From: Halomonas sp. TD01
GTDB taxonomy: Bacteria; Pseudomonadota; Gammaproteobacteria; Pseudomonadales; Halomonadaceae
Assembly (NCBI RefSeq): GCF_923868895.1
Contig: NZ_OV350343.1
Coordinates: 2,728,001 to 2,792,000 of the forward strand
Reading direction: 5' to 3'
DNA length: 64,000 bases
Made by a program: the position numbers and the translations under genes. Numbering within the stretch: position 1 is the first letter of the stretch; each line of letters starts with the position of its first letter. Shown here piece by piece: positions 1-9,215 of this stretch. The notes under the pieces are model-generated. The model had not been told where the DNA came from, searched no databases, and saw only the letters and a program-made list of their open reading frames with translations.

Positions 1-1146
1 AAGCCGCCAGCCGGCCTCGTCACGCCGCACAAGGCCTTGCGCCTGCCAAACGTCTGTCGCCGCATCAATGAGCATGGCATGGCCCTCGGTTCGGTGGGCG
101 AGGGCCTGCGCCAAACCAGGAGGAAAGGAGTTGTCCTTGAACCGTTCTGCAAGGTATCCAGACACTGCAGACTCATCTAGACCGTCAAGGGTGATCAACC
201 TGCAGTCTGGCTGCCGACTTAGTTGACCCAGCGTGGTCGCAAGCGTCCCGGCGCGGTCTAGTTCGTCATCGCGATAGCTGCCCAGAACCAGTAATCGCGC
301 CGGTGTGCGTTGCAGCCCCCAAGCGGCTAGCCAGGCGAGCGTACTAGGGTCTGCCCAGTGCAGATCCTCTAGCACCAGAACTCCAGGACGGCTACGGGTC
401 AGTCGTTCCATCAGCGCCGAGAATTCCCGCAGCATTGAGTTGTGGCGAGTACGATCCAACGCTTCGGCCTCCAAGCGACGCCCGGGGGAGTGTTGCTTGA
501 CCCAAGAGGGAGCGACGAGTGGCAGAAGCCGCGCCAGCGTGGCCTCCTCAGGTCCGACCATGAGTTGCGTCAATACATCCATCAGCAGCCCGTAGGGTTC
601 GCGTGCGCCAGGGTGAGCGATGGCCTGACCCCGAGCAATCCACAGTGGCGTGCGCTGGGGTAAACTAGCCTCAAATGCTTCCAGAAGGCGTGTTTTTCCG
701 GCTCCTGCTTCGCCCGAAATCAAAGCCATCGCCCGTCGACCATGCCTGGCGGCGGCGGCCCTTTCACTTAGGGTTTCCAGCTCCTTGTCCCGTCCGATGC
801 AGAACACTGTCGATGCCGCCACGAGATCTTCAGACGCATCGCCGATCAGCGGGATCGGACGCGTTAGCCGGTAGCCCCGGCGGCCCACTGTCTCGATTAG
901 CCTGATGTCTTGGGCGTTGTTATCCAGCATCTGGCGTAATTCGCGGATGCACTGTTTGGGTCCCGCCTCGTTACCAGGGCCGTTGCCCCATATCATGCGC
1001 CGCAAATCAGTCGTGCTGACCACTTCTCCTTGCTGCTCTATCAGTGCCACCAGTACGGACAGTGTCTTGGGGCGTAGGCGTATCTGTACTTCACCGCACT
1101 GTAGGATGCCTTCGCATAGGTTTACCTCGATATCTTCCGAAGTCAT
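1..1146 (-). CDS. Winged-helix/STAND-type ATPase transcriptional regulator (3' end cut by window edge)
   Basis: Read by hand on the minus strand: 382 codons stay open from ATG at 1146 to the window edge, so the C-terminus is missing. Residues about 20-94 look like an OmpR/CadC-type winged helix (RLRPKTLSVLVAL, then IRELRQML and a wing ending ETVGRRGYRL). Residues about 115-380 look like an AAA_16 or STAND-type ATPase, with Walker A GEAGAGKT at about 144-151 and a Walker B-like LVLEDLHWADP at about 257-267. In this family a C-terminal TPR or sensor region usually follows, beyond the edge here. It is divergent from the hydrolase gene at 1354 across about 207 bp, which suggests it controls that operon. 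The plus-strand frames over 305-1259 are shadows. The domain call is firm; ligand and target are inference. Confidence 0.85.
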   Translation of the reverse strand, partial: MTSEDIEVNLCEGILQCGEVQIRLRPKTLSVLVALIEQQGEVVSTTDLRRMIWGNGPGNEAGPKQCIRELRQMLDNNAQDIRLIETVGRRGYRLTRPIPLIGDASEDLVAASTVFCIGRDKELETLSERAAAARHGRRAMALISGEAGAGKTRLLEAFEASLPQRTPLWIARGQAIAHPGAREPYGLLMDVLTQLMVGPEEATLARLLPLVAPSWVKQHSPGRRLEAEALDRTRHNSMLREFSALMERLTRSRPGVLVLEDLHWADPSTLAWLAAWGLQRTPARLLVLGSYRDDELDRAGTLATTLGQLSRQPDCRLITLDGLDESAVSGYLAERFKDNSFPPGLAQALAHRTEGHAMLIDAATDVWQAQGLVRRDEAGWRL

Positions 1147-1243
1147 GTTTTATGGGGCCTCAAGACTTATTGCCGGAAGCCATTGCGCGTGAATGGCGGC
1201 AGCAGTTAAGTAAATGGCTTAGTAAAGCGCGAATTATACCAAT

Positions 1244-1261
1244 ATTGAACCCTAATTGAAC
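1244..1261 (+). promoter_or_regulatory. Candidate regulator site: direct repeat ATTGAAC with 11-bp period
   Basis: ATTGAAC occurs at 1244-1250 and again at 1255-1261, exactly 11 bp apart, in the spacer between the divergent regulator (start 1146) and the hydrolase gene (start 1354). OmpR/PhoB-type winged helices bind direct repeats with about one helical turn between half-sites, so this fits the neighbouring regulator. That it binds here is inference. Confidence 0.35.
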
Positions 1262-1353
1262 TTTACACTTATTTGTTTGCAATCAGAAATGAGCTATCTT
1301 CGCCTTCGAGAAAATATAAGCAAAAATGCGCACAACAGAAGAGGGGCAGGCAC

Positions 1354-2646
1354 ATGACAGTCATCCGGTTCCAACACAGAACAGCCCGCTGGTTCCGGCC
1401 CGGCCTCTCGGTTTGCACCGTGGCTTTAGCCCTCGCTGCCCCCGTTACCTCGCAGGCTCAGGATCAGTCGCAGCAGCTCTGCGTGGCCGACCCGGCTGCA
1501 GTGACGGCTCGCGCGGCCATCACGCTACCCGACACGCCGCTGCCTGAGGCCCTGTCCCGCGCCCTCGACGCTGCCGCGCGCAGGGCGTTAGACGGGGCCG
1601 CTGCGCCTGGGGTTATTGCGGGCGTTGTCACACCCGAGGGCCGCTGGAGCGGTGCTTGGGGGGGCGCGGACCCCGAAACCGATGCTGCGATGGAAGTCGG
1701 CATGCACACACGGATCGGATCGGTCACCAAGACCTTCACCGGCACCGCCCTGATGCAGTTGGCCGAGGCTGGCAAGCTATCGCTCGACGATACGATCGAC
1801 CAGTATGTGCCTGGCGTTCCCAACGGCGATATCATCACTCTGCGCCATCTAGCCAGCATGACCAGCGGCTTGCTGAGCTATACTCAGGCGGATCCCTTCC
1901 TTGATCTTTTTTTCTCAGATCCTAGCTTGCACTATACTCCGCAAGACCTGCTTGATTTTGCCTTCCCCGGCTCGCCGATCTTTGCACCAGGGGAGAAGTT
2001 CAATTATTCGAACACCAATACTGTGCTGCTGGGCCTCGTGATCGAACAGGTGACCGGGCAAGATATAGACACTGTCTTTACTTCGATGATCCTGGACCCG
2101 CTGGGCCTGACAGAGACCACCGGCCCTGACGGTGCTGCCCTCATGCCAGAACCTTATCCGCAGGGATTTACCCTGCAAGGCGATGCTGCAACGCCGGCTG
2201 CACCCTCAAACGCGACACACTGGGATCCGTCCTGGGGATGGACAGCGGGTGGAATGATCTCGACCCTCGACGACCTGCTGGTGTATGGACGCTCCCTCGG
2301 CACAGGCAAGGGCCTGCTGGGCGCTGAGGCGCAGCAGGAGCGTCTGCGGTCCTTCCCAGAGCCGGCGGGCTACGGCATCGCTATGGGGTGCGTTGACGGC
2401 TGGGTCGGCCACACAGGTGAGCTGCCCGGTTACAACACGACGGTGTTCTACGACACGACGACGGATACAACGGTAGTCGTACAGGCCAACAGCGACATCC
2501 CTTCGGGGAATTGCGGGGATGAGGACGTGCTACCGGACAACCCCGACGACCTTGCATGCAGCTCGCCCGCTAGTCGCGTGTTTGAAGCGCTATCCGTTGC
2601 CCTCGGGCATCCGTTTTCTATGACATCGACGGCCTCAGCAGAGTGA
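1354..2646 (+). CDS. Exported serine hydrolase, beta-lactamase class C/DD-peptidase fold (first copy)
   Basis: A 430-residue protein of the serine beta-lactamase-like family (class C beta-lactamases, DD-carboxypeptidases, esterases). The three active-site motifs are visible: S123-V-T-K126, Y218-S-N220 and H353-T-G355. Residues 1 to about 36 form a Sec signal peptide (positive start, hydrophobic run, cut near SQA/AQA), so it acts in the periplasm or outside. I chose ATG 1354, preceded by a GAGGGG-like ribosome site, over the open frame from 1273, because the extra 27 residues are highly charged and would precede the signal. Its stop overlaps the GTG start of the translocator gene, so the two are probably translated together. 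Paired cysteines in the mature part fit export. Family is secure; substrate (peptidoglycan, D-amino peptide or ester) cannot be told. Confidence 0.85.
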   Translation: MTVIRFQHRTARWFRPGLSVCTVALALAAPVTSQAQDQSQQLCVADPAAVTARAAITLPDTPLPEALSRALDAAARRALDGAAAPGVIAGVVTPEGRWSGAWGGADPETDAAMEVGMHTRIGSVTKTFTGTALMQLAEAGKLSLDDTIDQYVPGVPNGDIITLRHLASMTSGLLSYTQADPFLDLFFSDPSLHYTPQDLLDFAFPGSPIFAPGEKFNYSNTNTVLLGLVIEQVTGQDIDTVFTSMILDPLGLTETTGPDGAALMPEPYPQGFTLQGDAATPAAPSNATHWDPSWGWTAGGMISTLDDLLVYGRSLGTGKGLLGAEAQQERLRSFPEPAGYGIAMGCVDGWVGHTGELPGYNTTVFYDTTTDTTVVVQANSDIPSGNCGDEDVLPDNPDDLACSSPASRVFEALSVALGHPFSMTSTASAE

Positions 2647-4319
2647 GCGCGCTGACATTGCTGTTCCAGCACAGCCGTTCCTCAGCTCTCCGCTTGGGTG
2701 TTGCCGCTCTGCTTTGTGCCTGTTACGCGAGCCCAGCATTGTCGCAGGGCTTGCCAGACGTCAACCGCATCCTATCTGGGCAAACTGTTATCCTACAGCG
2801 CTACGAACCGCCGCCTCAGGTCGGCCGTGTCGCCATCGGCGTGCAGGACGAGCGCGACAGGATCGACTTAGAGCGCGCCAAAAGCATCCGTATTCGCCTG
2901 GCTTCGGTGCGCATTGATGGGGCGCGGACCCTACCTTTGTCGACGTTGACGCCGATCTGGCAGGGCCGAATCGGTGCCGAAATTACGCTGGCTGATCTTT
3001 ACCGCATGGCAGATGCTGTTGACGCGGCCTATCTCGCTGCGGGCTATTTTTCCAAGACAGTGGTGCCGGTGCAGGATTTTTCTGACGGACAGATCCGGCT
3101 GCAGGTATTTGAAGGCTATGTCGACCGCATCGAGATCAACAGTCATATTCCTGGCATCGAGACACGGTTGGCACCCTACCTGCAACGTATTCTCGACATG
3201 CATCCTATTCGGGTAAAGGCGGCCGAGCGTGAACTGTTGTTGATGAGTGATCTTGCCGGACTTTCGATTGAAGGGACTTTTGTGCGCCCCGAAGGCGCGA
3301 CGGGCGGCGGGGTGCTGCGCCTGGAGATCGGACAATATCGAAGCTCAGGAATGATCGGACTCGACAATCTGGGATCCGACACCGTTGGCCCATTACAAAT
3401 GGCCGGTGTGGTGACCTTTAACGATGTCCTGAACCAGTTCGAGACCACCAATTTGACCGGTGTCATCACACCGCAACACCTTGACCGGATGACCTTGCTT
3501 CAAATGATGCAAAGCTATCCGCTCGGATCGAACGGCCTTAACGCGGGCTACAGTTTTGTTTACCTGCGCCAACACCCCGACGGGGGAGCCGGCGCGCCGG
3601 ACATCGATGTGACATCCGCCATGGGCACGGCGTTTATGTCCTACCCGTTTCTGAGGACGCTGGACCGCTCGCTCTGGGGGCAGGCTGAACTGACGGTGCG
3701 TAACGATGACGTCGACGTTCTTGGCTCGGCCGCTGCCCGTAGCCGGATCCGCTGGGTGACGAACTCACTGCAATATAGTCAGAGCTTTGAGACATCCGAG
3801 ATCAACCTCGAAGGAGCGGTGAATCTCGGCACGAACTCGGATATTGATATGGGCGCGGTGCCGGATGATTTCCACTTTGTTACCGCCGAACTGGACTACA
3901 CACAGGCTTTCAGCGAGACGACGACAATGACATTGCTGGCTCGCGGCCAATACGCTGGCAGGCCCCTGCCGGGCGCTGTTCAGTTCGGTATTGGCGGCGA
4001 GACTTATGGCAGAGCCTTCGATAGCGGCACTATCTCTGGCGACAAAGGTGCAGCGGCCTCGGCCCAGTTAAGCCACGAGATCGATATCGGGCTAGCATTC
4101 CTGCCCACGCTTTCAACCTCGGCCTTCGTGGATTACGGCGCAGCCTGGTCCGACGACGTCACCGGACACATGTATCTTGGCTCCTATGGAGTAGGCCTTG
4201 GTGGAACGTTAGAGGAACAGCTGAATTTCCAGGTTATCGGTGCGCTTCCCTGGACCCGTTCTGACATAGTGGAAGACAAGGGGGGCAAGCTAATTTTCCA
4301 GCTGGCAATGCCATTCTAA
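2643..4319 (+). CDS. Outer-membrane translocator, TpsB/FhaC/ShlB family
   Basis: A 558-residue two-partner-secretion type transporter (type Vb, Omp85 superfamily). Residues 1-35 are a signal peptide ending ALSQ. Residues about 80-165 form a POTRA-like domain (IRLASVRIDGARTLP ... LQVFEGYVDRIEI). The rest is beta-barrel-like, with a GGETYGRAF motif near residue 450 matching the VRGY/F lid-loop motif, and it ends in LAMPF with the C-terminal phenylalanine typical of outer-membrane barrels. The start is GTG at 2643, overlapping the upstream stop by four bases. A second serine hydrolase follows 57 bp downstream. TpsB proteins normally export a large TpsA beta-helix protein with an N-terminal TPS domain; none is encoded here. 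Whether the hydrolases are its cargo is open. Confidence 0.85.
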   Translation: MSALTLLFQHSRSSALRLGVAALLCACYASPALSQGLPDVNRILSGQTVILQRYEPPPQVGRVAIGVQDERDRIDLERAKSIRIRLASVRIDGARTLPLSTLTPIWQGRIGAEITLADLYRMADAVDAAYLAAGYFSKTVVPVQDFSDGQIRLQVFEGYVDRIEINSHIPGIETRLAPYLQRILDMHPIRVKAAERELLLMSDLAGLSIEGTFVRPEGATGGGVLRLEIGQYRSSGMIGLDNLGSDTVGPLQMAGVVTFNDVLNQFETTNLTGVITPQHLDRMTLLQMMQSYPLGSNGLNAGYSFVYLRQHPDGGAGAPDIDVTSAMGTAFMSYPFLRTLDRSLWGQAELTVRNDDVDVLGSAAARSRIRWVTNSLQYSQSFETSEINLEGAVNLGTNSDIDMGAVPDDFHFVTAELDYTQAFSETTTMTLLARGQYAGRPLPGAVQFGIGGETYGRAFDSGTISGDKGAAASAQLSHEIDIGLAFLPTLSTSAFVDYGAAWSDDVTGHMYLGSYGVGLGGTLEEQLNFQVIGALPWTRSDIVEDKGGKLIFQLAMPF

Positions 4320-4376
4320 TCCGGCAGGAGGCATCGCCTCGCCCGTCGCGCTATCCATCCCACAGGAGACCCTGAT

Positions 4377-5999
4377 ATGACCGCACCGAAAGCCGCACGC
4401 CCCCTTCTGAGGTCGGCCTTGGGCATTCTAAGCGCTGCCGCAGCGTTGCTTGCACTCAATGCCCCGCTCCATGCGGGGACGCTGCCGACCATTGCCTTGC
4501 CGGACCCTGCGATCTCTCCTGCACGGGTGAACCTGTTGCCGGTGCCGCAGACGCGGATCGACGAAGCAGTCGCCTCGCTGGATGAGCTGGTGCAGGATAT
4601 GTTGGAGCGGACCGGAGTACCAGGCCTCGCCGTTGCCGTGGTGCATGGGGAAGAGACACTGCTGATGCGCGGCTGGGGGCTGCGGGCGGAGGGCGCGGAG
4701 GAACAGGTTGATGCGGATACAGTCTTTATGCTCGCTTCGTTGTCCAAATCTGTCGGAGCCACAGTGGTGGCCACACAGGTCACGGATGGGATCGTCAGTT
4801 GGGACGATCCGGTTCGCAACCACTTGCCATGGTTCGACCTGGGCGATCCGTGGGTCAGCAATCATGTCACCATCGGGGATCTCTATGCGCACCGCTCTGG
4901 TCTGCCGGATCACGCTGGTGATGATCTCGAGGATATAGGCTATGACCGTCGCGCGGTGCTGGAGCGGCTGGCGCAGCTGCCCATGGGGCAGTTCAGGGCC
5001 GATTACGCCTATACGAACTTCGGCCTGACCGCTGCGGCCGAGGCGGTAGCCACCGCAACCGGCAAGGACTGGTCAACGCTCTCGGAAGAGGCGCTCTATG
5101 GTCCGCTCGGCATGGAGGTGACCAGTTCGCGCCACTCGGATTACATGGCGCGCGATAATCGCGCGGCAAGCCATGTGCCGGATGCCAACGGCTTCAGAGT
5201 GGCAGATCTGCGCCAGCCCGATGCGCAAAGTCCGGCGGGCGGGGTTAGTTCCAGCGCGCGAGACATGGCGAAATGGATGAAACTGGTGCTCTCCACCGGG
5301 CGTTTTGAAGGGCAGCAGCTGATTGCACCCGAAGCTCTCGTGCCTGCGCTTTCGCCGCATGCCATCAGCGGCCATCCCAGTGAAGCGGCTGATCGGGCTG
5401 GCACCTATGGCTACGGCTTTGGTGTCGGCGTGCGCCCCACCGGACGCGTTGTGCTGAGCCATTCGGGCGCCTTCGCCTTTGGTGCGGCGACCTCCTATTC
5501 GATGCTGCCGGACCTAGGGCTTGGGATCATCGTGCTGACCAATGCCAGCCCCACCGGCCTCCCCGAGGCATTGACTGCCAGCTTTCTTGATCGCGCAGAG
5601 TTTGGTGTGGAACAACGCGACTGGCTAGCGGCCTACGGGCCGCGCATCGCACCGCTCTCGGCCCCGGTCGGGGATCTGTTGGGCGTGACACCTCCGGCTG
5701 AGCCCACCGAAGCCCGGCCTGCCGAAGCTTATACTGGGATCTATGACAATGCCTATTTCGGGGCGGCTGAGGTACGTGAGACCGCTGACGGCTTGGTGCT
5801 CGAGGTTGGCCCCGCACCACAGCGCCTGCGGTTGATCCACTGGGACGGCGACCGCTTTGTCGCCTTCCCGGTGACAGAGAACCAACCAGAGGGCTCGGTT
5901 TCGCAGGTCGAATTCACCATGGGCGCGGATGGGAAGGCAGAAACGATAACCGTAGAACATCTGAACGAGGCGGGCCTTGGAGAGTTTCACCGATCATGA
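4377..5999 (+). CDS. Exported serine hydrolase, beta-lactamase fold with C-terminal extension (second copy)
   Basis: A 540-residue member of the same family as the gene at 1354, but clearly diverged from it. Active-site motifs are S121-L-S-K124, Y212-T-N214 and H362-S-G364. Residues 1-33 are a signal peptide ending LHA. After the catalytic domain (to about residue 410) a separate region of about 110 residues (AYTGIYDNAYFGAAEV ...) resembles the DUF3471-type beta domain often attached to such hydrolases. A GGAGA-like ribosome site (AGGAGA near 4364) precedes ATG 4377. The gene follows the translocator on the same strand and is probably in one transcript with it. The name beta-lactamase would overstate it; esterase, DD-peptidase or D-aminopeptidase activity is equally possible. 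Confidence 0.85.
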   Translation: MTAPKAARPLLRSALGILSAAAALLALNAPLHAGTLPTIALPDPAISPARVNLLPVPQTRIDEAVASLDELVQDMLERTGVPGLAVAVVHGEETLLMRGWGLRAEGAEEQVDADTVFMLASLSKSVGATVVATQVTDGIVSWDDPVRNHLPWFDLGDPWVSNHVTIGDLYAHRSGLPDHAGDDLEDIGYDRRAVLERLAQLPMGQFRADYAYTNFGLTAAAEAVATATGKDWSTLSEEALYGPLGMEVTSSRHSDYMARDNRAASHVPDANGFRVADLRQPDAQSPAGGVSSSARDMAKWMKLVLSTGRFEGQQLIAPEALVPALSPHAISGHPSEAADRAGTYGYGFGVGVRPTGRVVLSHSGAFAFGAATSYSMLPDLGLGIIVLTNASPTGLPEALTASFLDRAEFGVEQRDWLAAYGPRIAPLSAPVGDLLGVTPPAEPTEARPAEAYTGIYDNAYFGAAEVRETADGLVLEVGPAPQRLRLIHWDGDRFVAFPVTENQPEGSVSQVEFTMGADGKAETITVEHLNEAGLGEFHRS

Positions 6000-6454: not shown

Positions 6455-6938
6455 ATGAATAATATCCCGTCGTTTGGCTTACGAAAATACATATGGTGGT
6501 TACACTCAGTTTCGCTGGTTTTCTTTGCTACTATTTTACTGGCAGCTGAAGTTAAGCCCGTTCCAGGCACTTTTGCTTCTTCACAAGATGAGGCTCCTAT
6601 ATTGATGGTGGATACTCAGGAAGGACGCCGTTATATTAGCCGTGCTGACATCGAAACCTTGCCACTTTATGCTACAAATTTTCAGCATTTCAAAGGTTTG
6701 TATGGAAGTTTTGCAGGCGTATGGCTGAAAGATCTGCTCTCTGCTCAAAATATTGATGAAGCGGCAACGCTTCGTTTCATCGCTCATGACGATTACAGCG
6801 TTTTTATAAATTCAGAAGATCGTCTCAAACGGGATTATCTTCTCGTTACCCGCCTCGATGGAGAACCTCTAACGCTGACTGACTTTGGACCCACGTTGTT
6901 GATTGTCCCGGCTGAGGCAGAGTCCTTGGCCGCAGAAA

Positions 6939-8010
6939 CTGAGTGCAACACCTGAGCATTTCGCTAAGGTGTTGTCCCATGTCTTACCTCGAACTCAGTA
7001 TTGAAGAACGTGCCAGCATCCAAGTGGGTCAAGCCCAAGGGATGAGCCTTCGGCATATTGCCCAGCTCCTGGGGCGAGCTCCTTCAACCATCTCTCGTGA
7101 AATACGCCGTAACCAAATGGCCCAGAACGGTTACTGCGCCCGGTACGCCCAACGTCAGCGAGAAAAGCGTCGAGAGGTCTGTCGTCCTGCGCGTAAGCTT
7201 TTGCCAGGCACCGAGCGGTTTGATCTCATCGTGCATATGTTGCGGCGACGCTTGTCTCCCGAACAAATTAGCGGCAAGCTCAAGACGATGAAACTACCTG
7301 ATTTGCGCGATGCCTACGTCTGCCGAGAGACCATCTACACGGCCATTTATGCCTTGCCTGTTGGCCACCTTCGCAAGGAACTGATTCACTGCTTGCGACA
7401 AGGTAAAACCACACGCAAGCCTCGCCGTGGCGAAGTGGATCGACGTGGCCAGATCCCTGACATGGTCAGCATTCACTTACGTCCGCCCGAGGTCAGTAAG
7501 CGTGAAATGCCCGGCCACTGGGAAGGCGATCTGATCAAAGGTAAGAATAACGCGTCCGCGGTAGGCACCTTGGTAGAGCTTAGTAGTGGCTATCTGATCC
7601 TCGCAAAAATGGACGACGCCACCGCCACCTCCGCCGTAGCAGGCTTTAGTGCTGCTCTGAATCGAATGCCGACCACCGCTCGAAAAAGCATGACCTATGA
7701 TCAGGGGCGTGAAATGGCACAACATGCAAAAATCACTCAAGAAACCGGCGTTGCGATTTACTTTTGCGATCCCCATAGCCCCTGGCAACGTGGGGCCAAT
7801 GAGAATATCAATGGCCTTATCCGTCAATATTTACCGAAAGGAACGGACCTTTCAGTACATAGCCAGGAAGAGCTGGACGCCATTGCCTTTGAGCTGAATA
7901 TGCGACCTCGAAAACGCTTTGGATTTAAATGTCCGATAGAAGTGATGAGCGAGCTGATGGCCAAGTACCATGAAAGCCCATCAACCATCCAATGAGTGTG
8001 TTGCACTCAG
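6939..8010 (+). mobile_element. IS30-family insertion sequence, about 1072 bp
   Basis: The ends are perfect 13-bp inverted repeats: CTGAGTGCAACAC at 6939-6951 and its complement at 7998-8010. One intact transposase fills the interior. No clear 2-3 bp target duplication is seen; only a single A is shared at both junctions (6938 and 8011), and that count restores the reading frame of the interrupted gene. Intact ends and intact transposase point to a recent and possibly still mobile copy. Confidence 0.85.
6979..7995 (+). CDS. IS30-family transposase
   Basis: A 338-residue transposase that cuts and joins the ends of its own element. The N-terminal third carries helix-turn-helix motifs (IEERASIQVGQAQGMSLRHI, then GRAPSTISREIRRN). 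The rve-type catalytic core shows D184 in HWEGDLIKG, D241 in TYDQGRE and E275 in GANENINGL, a DD33E spacing typical of IS30. I chose ATG 6979 because MSYLELSIEERASI is the common family start; the frame is open from GTG 6943, inside the terminal repeat. Length is normal and there is no frameshift, so it is probably functional. Confidence 0.93.
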   Translation: MSYLELSIEERASIQVGQAQGMSLRHIAQLLGRAPSTISREIRRNQMAQNGYCARYAQRQREKRREVCRPARKLLPGTERFDLIVHMLRRRLSPEQISGKLKTMKLPDLRDAYVCRETIYTAIYALPVGHLRKELIHCLRQGKTTRKPRRGEVDRRGQIPDMVSIHLRPPEVSKREMPGHWEGDLIKGKNNASAVGTLVELSSGYLILAKMDDATATSAVAGFSAALNRMPTTARKSMTYDQGREMAQHAKITQETGVAIYFCDPHSPWQRGANENINGLIRQYLPKGTDLSVHSQEELDAIAFELNMRPRKRFGFKCPIEVMSELMAKYHESPSTIQ

Positions 8011-8090
8011 AGTCTGCATCCGCCGTCTGTTCAAGCAGGAACAGCCGACATGACCCATTGGGTCTGGTCAATTCGAGATATCATCGTCCA

Positions 8091-9215
8091 ATGAAGTTGC
8101 GGGCTATAAAGTCAATAGGCTGGAAGCTGGGGTTAGCTTTTATTCTGATAACGGGTACTTGTGCCATTGCCATAGCGTTATATGGTTTACATGTTCGTCA
8201 GCAAATGGGGTCTAATTATACTTCGCTTGTAGCAGTGATTGTACGTTCTCAGACGCATGCCGTTATGTTTCGAAACGCTTTAGAGGATTTACGCGATCAT
8301 CCTGGAGATCCTGAAGTATTTAGTCGCCTGGAGAATCTTCTGTGGCGGATACCGCAACATATTGATGGAATAAGTTTTAGTCTGCAGACTAATCTGCTTT
8401 CCGAATCAGATTATCATGCCTCTCTGGCAAGGTTACAGGATATTAAGGAGCGTCTGTCTGAGATGCGACAGCAGCTCGATGGAATTATCTTAGGTGACTC
8501 AATCGAAAAGTTTCTGTATCAAGGCCAAGTGATCGAAAACGACTTGGCTCAGGTTTACAGTACCTTTGAAGGAATGGTGCACTCAGAAGCAGCCAAGCAG
8601 CGCATTGTCATGGAGCGACTGGGGCGCACCATATCGGTGCTGGCTTTTATGACCCTGATACTGATACTAGGACTTCTGATTTCATTATTTAGACTTAAAC
8701 GCGAACACCAAAAAGTTAAGCGCCTCAGTCAGTTTGATGAGCTAACAAAATTAGGCAATCGTCGCTATTTGCTGAGCTTTGCAGAACATTGTTGTAAACA
8801 TAGCCAGCGCTCTGGTAGTCCTTTGGGCTTGATTCTTATTGATATTGACAACTTCAAGTATATAAATGACACATTTGGTCATCCTGCCGGTGATCTAATA
8901 CTTCAGGTAGTTGCGGGAGTGCTAAAAGATGAAGCTCGCAAAATAGATGTGTTAGCTCGGATTGGAGGTGAAGAGTTCTGTATACTATTACCAGATACAG
9001 ATGTTGATGGCGCCATGCAGCTAGCAGAACGGCTGCGTAAAAAAACGAGTGATCTAACACAAAAACAATTAGGCGTTGCTACCTCAGTTACAATGAGTCT
9101 AGGAGTAGCGATAGCATGTAAAAACGAAGCTACTTTTAAGCATCTTTATGCACGTGCAGACAAAGCTTTGTATCAAGCAAAAATGCATGGTCGCAACCGG
9201 ATAGAATTCGGTTAG
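8091..9215 (+). CDS. Membrane diguanylate cyclase (GGEEF)
   Basis: A 374-residue enzyme making cyclic di-GMP from two GTP. A first membrane segment (about residues 11-33) and a second (about 178-200, LILILGLLISLF) bracket a periplasmic sensor region of about 145 residues rich in predicted helix. The C-terminal GGDEF domain has the active-site loop G292-G-E-E-F296 and an intact inhibitory I-site R283-K-I-D286. The start at 8091 overlaps the stop of the interrupted upstream gene (ATGA), so I prefer it to the open frame from 7992, which begins inside the IS30 end. The periplasmic partner was probably the product of 6455; the insertion would remove the signal and may also change transcription. 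Catalytic residues look intact. Confidence 0.9.
   Translation: MKLRAIKSIGWKLGLAFILITGTCAIAIALYGLHVRQQMGSNYTSLVAVIVRSQTHAVMFRNALEDLRDHPGDPEVFSRLENLLWRIPQHIDGISFSLQTNLLSESDYHASLARLQDIKERLSEMRQQLDGIILGDSIEKFLYQGQVIENDLAQVYSTFEGMVHSEAAKQRIVMERLGRTISVLAFMTLILILGLLISLFRLKREHQKVKRLSQFDELTKLGNRRYLLSFAEHCCKHSQRSGSPLGLILIDIDNFKYINDTFGHPAGDLILQVVAGVLKDEARKIDVLARIGGEEFCILLPDTDVDGAMQLAERLRKKTSDLTQKQLGVATSVTMSLGVAIACKNEATFKHLYARADKALYQAKMHGRNRIEFG

Follow-up and report, generated by a model that had tools for sequence, protein, structure and literature searches.

A branch of TpsB-type outer-membrane proteins encoded beside S12 serine hydrolases in Halomonas sp. TD01 and other proteobacteria

The window analysed here, a 64,000-nucleotide stretch of DNA from Halomonas sp. 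TD01 (C1:2728001-2792000 of a single-contig genome of 4.14 Mb), carries at its left end a gene for a TpsB-type outer-membrane protein that adjoins genes for serine hydrolases of the S12 family. We found that this protein belongs to a distinct TpsB clade whose genes lie beside an S12 hydrolase gene in most of the genomes concerned, and that this pairing is no chance association. The clade seems, with somewhat more than even probability, to have abandoned the TPS-domain rule of two-partner secretion and to handle compact serine hydrolases, either in a TPS-less, enzyme-cargo form of type V secretion or in a two-gene docking system of an Omp85 protein with exchangeable hydrolases.

Pairing of TpsB with S12 hydrolases

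From left to right, the locus consists of a regulator gene (REG) on the minus strand, a 207-bp divergent region and, all on the plus strand, a first hydrolase gene (H1, 1354..2646), tpsB (2643..4319) and a second hydrolase gene (H2, 4377..5999). H1 and tpsB overlap by 4 bases (2643-2646), and a gap of 57 bp (4320-4376) separates tpsB from H2. The original prediction for this DNA had described this gene order, including the overlap, the gap and the opposite-strand regulator, and open reading frames and Pfam matches bear it out. The gene limits needed correction at two points: REG extends beyond the left edge of the window, and H1 begins at ATG 1354, the start common to its relatives, rather than at TTG 1273 upstream.

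A TpsB profile (A1, from an alignment that took 41 of 63 TpsB homologue matches) was searched against 201 genomes of the window's family, 398 of its phylum, 295 of the family of Chachezhania antarctica, 61 of the order of G548, two classes (355 and 372 genomes) and eight genomes of the relatives' loci; these sets overlap in part, and scoring in the larger ones was confined to the top few candidates of each genome. Among the matches listed, the scores split in two, with 19 places at 439 bits or above and the others at 361 bits or below. A same-strand S12 gene directly adjoins tpsB at 15 of the 19 clade loci, against none of the 74 other distinct TpsB whose flanks were scanned (Fisher test, 5e-14, kinship among loci ignored; the clade loci are related and those of G238 and G239 are near-copies, so that such values overstate independence). 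The control scan used a custom profile of H1 and H2 kin (E<=1e-5) and covered, at most loci, flanks no longer than about 1.5 kb; PF00144 was searched over 69 genomes, again among the matches listed.

H1 lies upstream of tpsB at 12 loci (the window's genome, G000, and G192, G196, G234, G235, G237, G238, G239, G815, G240:C1, G866 and G842:C23), H2 kin upstream of tpsB are the sole adjacent hydrolase in G927 and G928, and a different S12 gene stands downstream in G752. Partner subfamily and side thus vary across loci while the pairing remains. Seven of 124 matching plasmid records were also examined: the La6 record repeats the G866 locus, three carry S12 next to tpsB, the one from Paracoccus seriniphilus is incomplete, and two, from Azospirillum and Thalassospira, hold ordinary TpsB without S12. 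On two Martelella plasmids, TpsB is followed by the S12 gene downstream and preceded by a LuxR-type gene. The Mesorhizobium plasmid (L128:4717-12401) encodes a 720-residue protein with PG_binding_1 and S12 domains upstream of TpsB, with two AmpH genes and an M23 peptidase gene nearby, and from this content the cluster may be a peptidoglycan-directed set.

The full order REG-H1-TpsB-H2 is found at five loci (G000, G192, G196, G235 and G237), all from Halomonadaceae; among the loci compared it was not seen outside this family, where the pair of hydrolase and TpsB persists. The refuting condition set originally, that the four genes do not stay together in other genomes, thus applies to the four-gene order and not to the pair. 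The four-gene order is a local arrangement, and the constant core is hydrolase plus TpsB. The conserved unit proposed originally, hydrolase-translocator-hydrolase with its own regulator, is therefore reduced to that pair, since H2 is replaced or separated elsewhere and REG is present at 12 of the 19 loci.

Phylogenetic analysis of 88 TpsB proteins placed every one of the 18 hydrolase-adjacent rows in a single clade of 38 rows (SH-aLRT 100, stem 0.81); among its other 20 rows, 16 have no known context, two are special cases and two are hydrolase-less. The tree included 16 of the 63 homologue matches and omitted 26 of the 93 distinct genome TpsB rows (those under 190 bits). The best scorers outside the clade, L137-L139 (313-361 bits), were placed there by score alone, the tree not including them. 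The open frames next to L137 and L139, of 2332 and 2252 codons, match a TpsA in size; the one next to L138 has 252 codons.

Of the 201 genomes searched in the window's family, 3 have a clade TpsB, among them the genome of the window itself; the nearest named relatives of the window's protein are from Halomonas/Vreelandella. The cassette has a GC content of 0.58-0.64 against 0.53 in its surroundings, its flanks vary between Halomonas species (by eye), and identity between the window's proteins and those of Roseovarius and Pelagivirga is 79-89%. These sequence features point to horizontal spread of the cassette, probably from GC-richer alphaproteobacteria. Carriage by phages was considered and rejected, as no match was found in phages or viral contigs.

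The TPS domain and the usual exoprotein

All TpsA proteins have in common a TPS domain of about 250 residues, according to PMC5422565. A search for this domain (PF05860) around the 19 clade loci found none within 15 kb of tpsB, with some contigs ending before that distance. Alone, this lack is weak evidence, because about half of the ordinary TpsBs are also without a match: PF05860 lies within 15 kb of 27 of 58 ordinary places, within 1.5 kb of 17, and nowhere within 15 kb of the remaining 31. We therefore rejected it as a clade-specific mark, the informative trait being the adjacency of the hydrolase.

The 19 loci come from 17 genomes, and in 15 of these PF05860 gives no match at E<=1e-5; the window's genome and G548 have one each, elsewhere. 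In the former, the match (C1:3876076) lies 1.15 Mb from the locus and its protein adjoins a TpsB of its own (325 bits to PF03865), which rules out a TpsA gene just beyond the window's edge. The absence of the usual exoprotein, as originally described, is thus supported: a TpsA beside the regulator outside the window was looked for with PF05860 and not found. The distant place itself (L124, C1 about 3.87-3.88 Mb) is an ordinary two-partner system, with a TPS-domain protein that has an ESPR signal and a frame of 7543 residues.

The TpsB protein

The window's TpsB (558 residues) matches PF08479 (POTRA_2, 53.5 bits) and PF03865 (ShlB, 59.6 bits), both above cut-off. Its AlphaFold2 model, from a 42-row alignment (pLDDT 86.4), has a helix at residues 40-53, two POTRA-like units and 16 strands (counted manually), and the best Foldseek matches are CdiB (6wim, 6wil) and FhaC (4ql0). 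In all these respects it resembles the transporters of two-partner secretion (type Vb), from which the present system differs in that tpsB has next to it the gene of a compact S12 hydrolase that lacks a TPS domain, and in two features of the barrel protein. Q47, a plug/linker residue, is found in 37 of 38 clade rows and 1 of 50 others, and the arginine of the L6 (V/I)RG(Y/F) motif, retained in 17 of 38 clade rows, is replaced in 21, compared with 7 of 50 others. In FhaC, this arginine locks the lid to an aspartate (PMC4490367); the strand-13 aspartate of this lid lock is retained in 37 of 38 clade rows, and the window's TpsB itself has both R457 and D497. Q47 and the loss of the L6 arginine, as read from the alignment, suggest that the clade has changed.

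The two hydrolases

H1 encodes a 430-residue protein, predicted to be exported, that matches PF00144 (186 bits, above cut-off), with the motifs SVTK (1720..1731, residues 123-126), YSN (2005..2013, residues 218-220) and HTG (2410..2418, residues 353-355); S123 and K126 are invariant in a 41-row alignment. H2, of 540 residues and also predicted to be exported, combines PF00144 (199 bits, above cut-off) with a C-terminal DUF3471 and has SLSK (4737..4748, residues 121-124), YTN (5010..5018, residues 212-214) and HSG (5460..5468, residues 362-364). The SxxK, YxN and HxG motifs are thus intact in both proteins, as had been noted before. Both score far below the NCBIfam equivalog cut-off of 415 bits for class C beta-lactamases (NF033085), H1 at 62.1 bits and H2 at 69 bits.

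In the H1 model (pLDDT 85.3), residues 1-38 are of low confidence and are followed by a single S12 domain. The top structure matches are alkaline D-peptidase (4y7p), dHy1, a Streptomyces D-stereospecific amidohydrolase (3wwx) and the R61 DD-peptidase, with D-amino-acid amidase lower, and a sequence search agrees with these D-stereospecific peptidase matches. H1 shares their fold and their three motifs, and differs in its identity of about 30% and in being coupled to an outer-membrane protein gene. From fold, motifs and neighbouring genes, activity on D-peptides or peptidoglycan fragments would be the likeliest; the D-peptide or cell-wall chemistry suggested earlier is supported to that extent by the H1 fold.

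The comparison with TPS domains by structure prediction, also suggested earlier, revealed neither a TPS domain nor a beta-helix in the H1 model. The alignment of H1 with Subtercola and Arthrobacter homologues spans the whole mature protein without an extra segment, and a concealed TPS-like N-terminus is ruled out, alignment and model together giving a signal region, a short helix and the S12 domain. Cysteines 43, 346, 387 and 402 are conserved; 76 of 120 relatives have four cysteines, 35 have three and nine have five. Two named homologues at 62% are actinobacterial, and several have N-termini that look lipobox-like by eye. The signal of H1 in the window is Sec-like by pattern, whereas Tat-type signals (SRRHFL, SRRGLL, SRRSLL) match in the adjacent S12 proteins of Martelella and G927/G928; both the Tat and the lipobox assignments rest on patterns, and a loose RRx pattern also occurs in 22 of 120 H2 relatives.

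H2, an accessory or alternative partner, belongs to a large and common hydrolase family (6124 matches). Its lack of cysteines was rejected as a mark of secretion, since 107 of 113 relatives, from other or unspecified contexts, are likewise Cys-free. In H. halocynthiae, a patatin gene stands where H2 would be; it was rejected as a PlpD-like part, as the patatin match starts at residue 109 of the open reading frame and the likely start has no signal peptide by eye. In Pelagivirga and G815, a gene for a cytochrome-like protein of about 1010 residues, with weak cytochrome/P460-like matches, lies between tpsB and H2 (Rhodobacterales; L009:10053-13085, L113:5523-8588).

The regulator and the surroundings of the locus

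The window holds the first 382 of the 910 codons of REG (1..1146, minus strand); the remainder lies to its left (full length, L002:14414-17146). The protein has Trans_reg_C and AAA_16 domains and a Walker A type motif, GEAGAGKT, at residue 145. In joining a winged helix to an AAA ATPase it is like the HilA/CadC-like and STAND-type regulators, the STAND label being our presumption, and it differs in scoring far below all NCBIfam cut-offs among the matches listed. REG is found at all six Halomonadaceae loci and at those of G238, G239, G815, G866, G842:C23 and G240:C23; it was not seen at G240:C1, G842:C16, G752, G548, G926, G927 or G928, and no annotation of it stands beside the Martelella or Mesorhizobium plasmid pairs. 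Within the divergent region (1147..1353), a block at 1233-1262 (TTATACC..ATTGAAC) is partly conserved in an alignment of eight loci, the window having two ATTGAAC copies with a spacing of 11 bp and the relatives one copy or variants; it is a candidate operator.

To the right of the locus, a transposase gene (6932-8017, rve and HTH_38), presumably of IS30 type, is bordered on both sides by 20-bp inverted repeats (90%), with an Oxidored_molyb-like gene (6455-6955) on its left and a GGDEF-like gene (7992-9215) on its right. The last two are adjacent, without the transposase, in H. alkaliantarctica (L006:11583-13240).

Discussion

The hydrolase is probably a dedicated partner of TpsB that meets it at the periplasmic face formed by the POTRA domains and the plug linker. 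We infer that TpsB serves the hydrolase because H1 occurs without TpsB while clade TpsB is seldom without a hydrolase. As to how the two would work together, our tentative preference, held at somewhat below even probability, is that the hydrolase took the place of the TPS-domain exoprotein in a horizontally spread core of TpsB and S12 enzyme and docks on the barrel. The hydrolase would be exported to the periplasm, by a Sec-like signal in the window and a Tat-type one in some relatives, fold there and dock on the POTRA domains, as an enzyme/Omp85 pair in trans resembling PlpD. Thus placed at the outer membrane, it would cut peptides containing D-amino acids, from own or foreign peptidoglycan fragments; in the window, REG would turn the set on and H2 would widen its substrate range. 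In PlpD (type Vd), the patatin domain remains periplasmic, at the POTRA domain (PMC11116518). The present system is like it in combining an Omp85 barrel with a serine hydrolase possibly held by POTRA domains, and differs in having two genes where PlpD is a single polypeptide, an S12 (PF00144) enzyme in place of a patatin and a TpsB-type barrel with two POTRA domains.

Secretion similar to that of two-partner systems, has perhaps one chance in three. A non-TPS signal would here let TpsB thread H1 and/or H2 out to the cell surface or the medium, where D-peptides or foreign peptidoglycan would be cut. This reading would account for the coupling of the genes (the 4-base overlap recurs at four more Halomonadaceae loci, L004-L007), for the clade-wide pairing and for the intact transporter architecture of TpsB, and it agrees with the lipobox-like actinobacterial homologues, which would place H1 kin outside the cell membrane of these single-membrane bacteria, and with a window H2 that is Sec-type and Cys-free. 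Threading needs an unfolded partner, and is disfavoured because H1 has no added domain, four cysteines and Tat-type relatives. H1 lacks the TPS domain, unlike all known TpsA (PMC5422565), and aligns along its full mature length with its Subtercola and Arthrobacter homologues, and its four cysteines contrast with the few and closely spaced ones of type V cargos described in PMC8151025. Signals of the Tat type point to a folded hydrolase in two lineages. Such signals imply export in the folded state, and argue against threading. Docking in the periplasm is, in our view, at least as likely as secretion.

Two further readings have less in their favour. TpsB could be a pore or receptor for D-amino-acid peptides or muropeptides, with the hydrolases as periplasmic enzymes of the uptake pathway that do not contact it; this would fit the D-specific fold of H1 and the Mesorhizobium neighbours (PG-binding S12, AmpH, M23), but inspection of the loci by eye showed no transporter gene that they share and we know of no small-molecule role for any TpsB, and we regard it as improbable. 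That TpsB serves a distant TpsA, the hydrolases merely travelling along on islands, is more improbable still. The mobility of the cassette (its GC content, variable flanks and plasmids) would allow it, and against it stand the 15 of 17 genomes without PF05860, the presence of a separate tpsB beside the single match in the window's genome, and the persistence of the pairing across differing hydrolase subfamilies.

Several observations weigh against dedicated pairing with docking. Two of the 19 loci (G548 and G926) have no hydrolase beside tpsB, G842:C16 retains just the tail of H1, in frame with tpsB, and at G240:C23 it is REG that lies next to tpsB, the hydrolases being about 3.5-5 kb away. 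The Paracoccus seriniphilus plasmid has an unannotated, incomplete clade tpsB (L130:9001-9534), around which a search out to 9 kb showed no hydrolase, and H1 is found without TpsB in G842:C30. The helix, two POTRA domains and 16 strands predicted for TpsB are kept, so that it may still be translocating; H2 of the window, with its Sec-like signal and no cysteines, could be threaded. The disulfide argument is itself soft, as a mere 15 positions separate two of the H1 cysteines, 387 and 402, and the cysteine count is three in 35 of 120 relatives.

Some of these loci have further particulars. In both genomes with a hydrolase-less clade tpsB (L116, L117), a lactate-permease gene is adjacent on the opposite strand. 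The C-terminal remnant of H1 and tpsB form one open frame of 645 codons (L110:8690-10627).

Among the full-text matches listed, no paper describes the pairing of TpsB with S12 hydrolases, subscription journals lying largely outside the coverage, and a term search of the main text of the superfamily survey PMC4104836 gave neither 'lactamase' nor 'hydrolase'. The TpsB family is defined by its dedicated TPS-domain exoprotein, and here a clade at 19 genome places and three plasmid places, in two proteobacterial classes, has an adjacent S12 gene at 18 of them and a nearby TPS domain, as far as found, at none. Annotations such as 'haemolysin secretion/activation protein' can therefore mislead. The pair offers a small and testable system for what TpsB barrels recognise besides the TPS domain, and for whether periplasmic enzymes dock on Omp85 proteins, as the fused domain of PlpD does.

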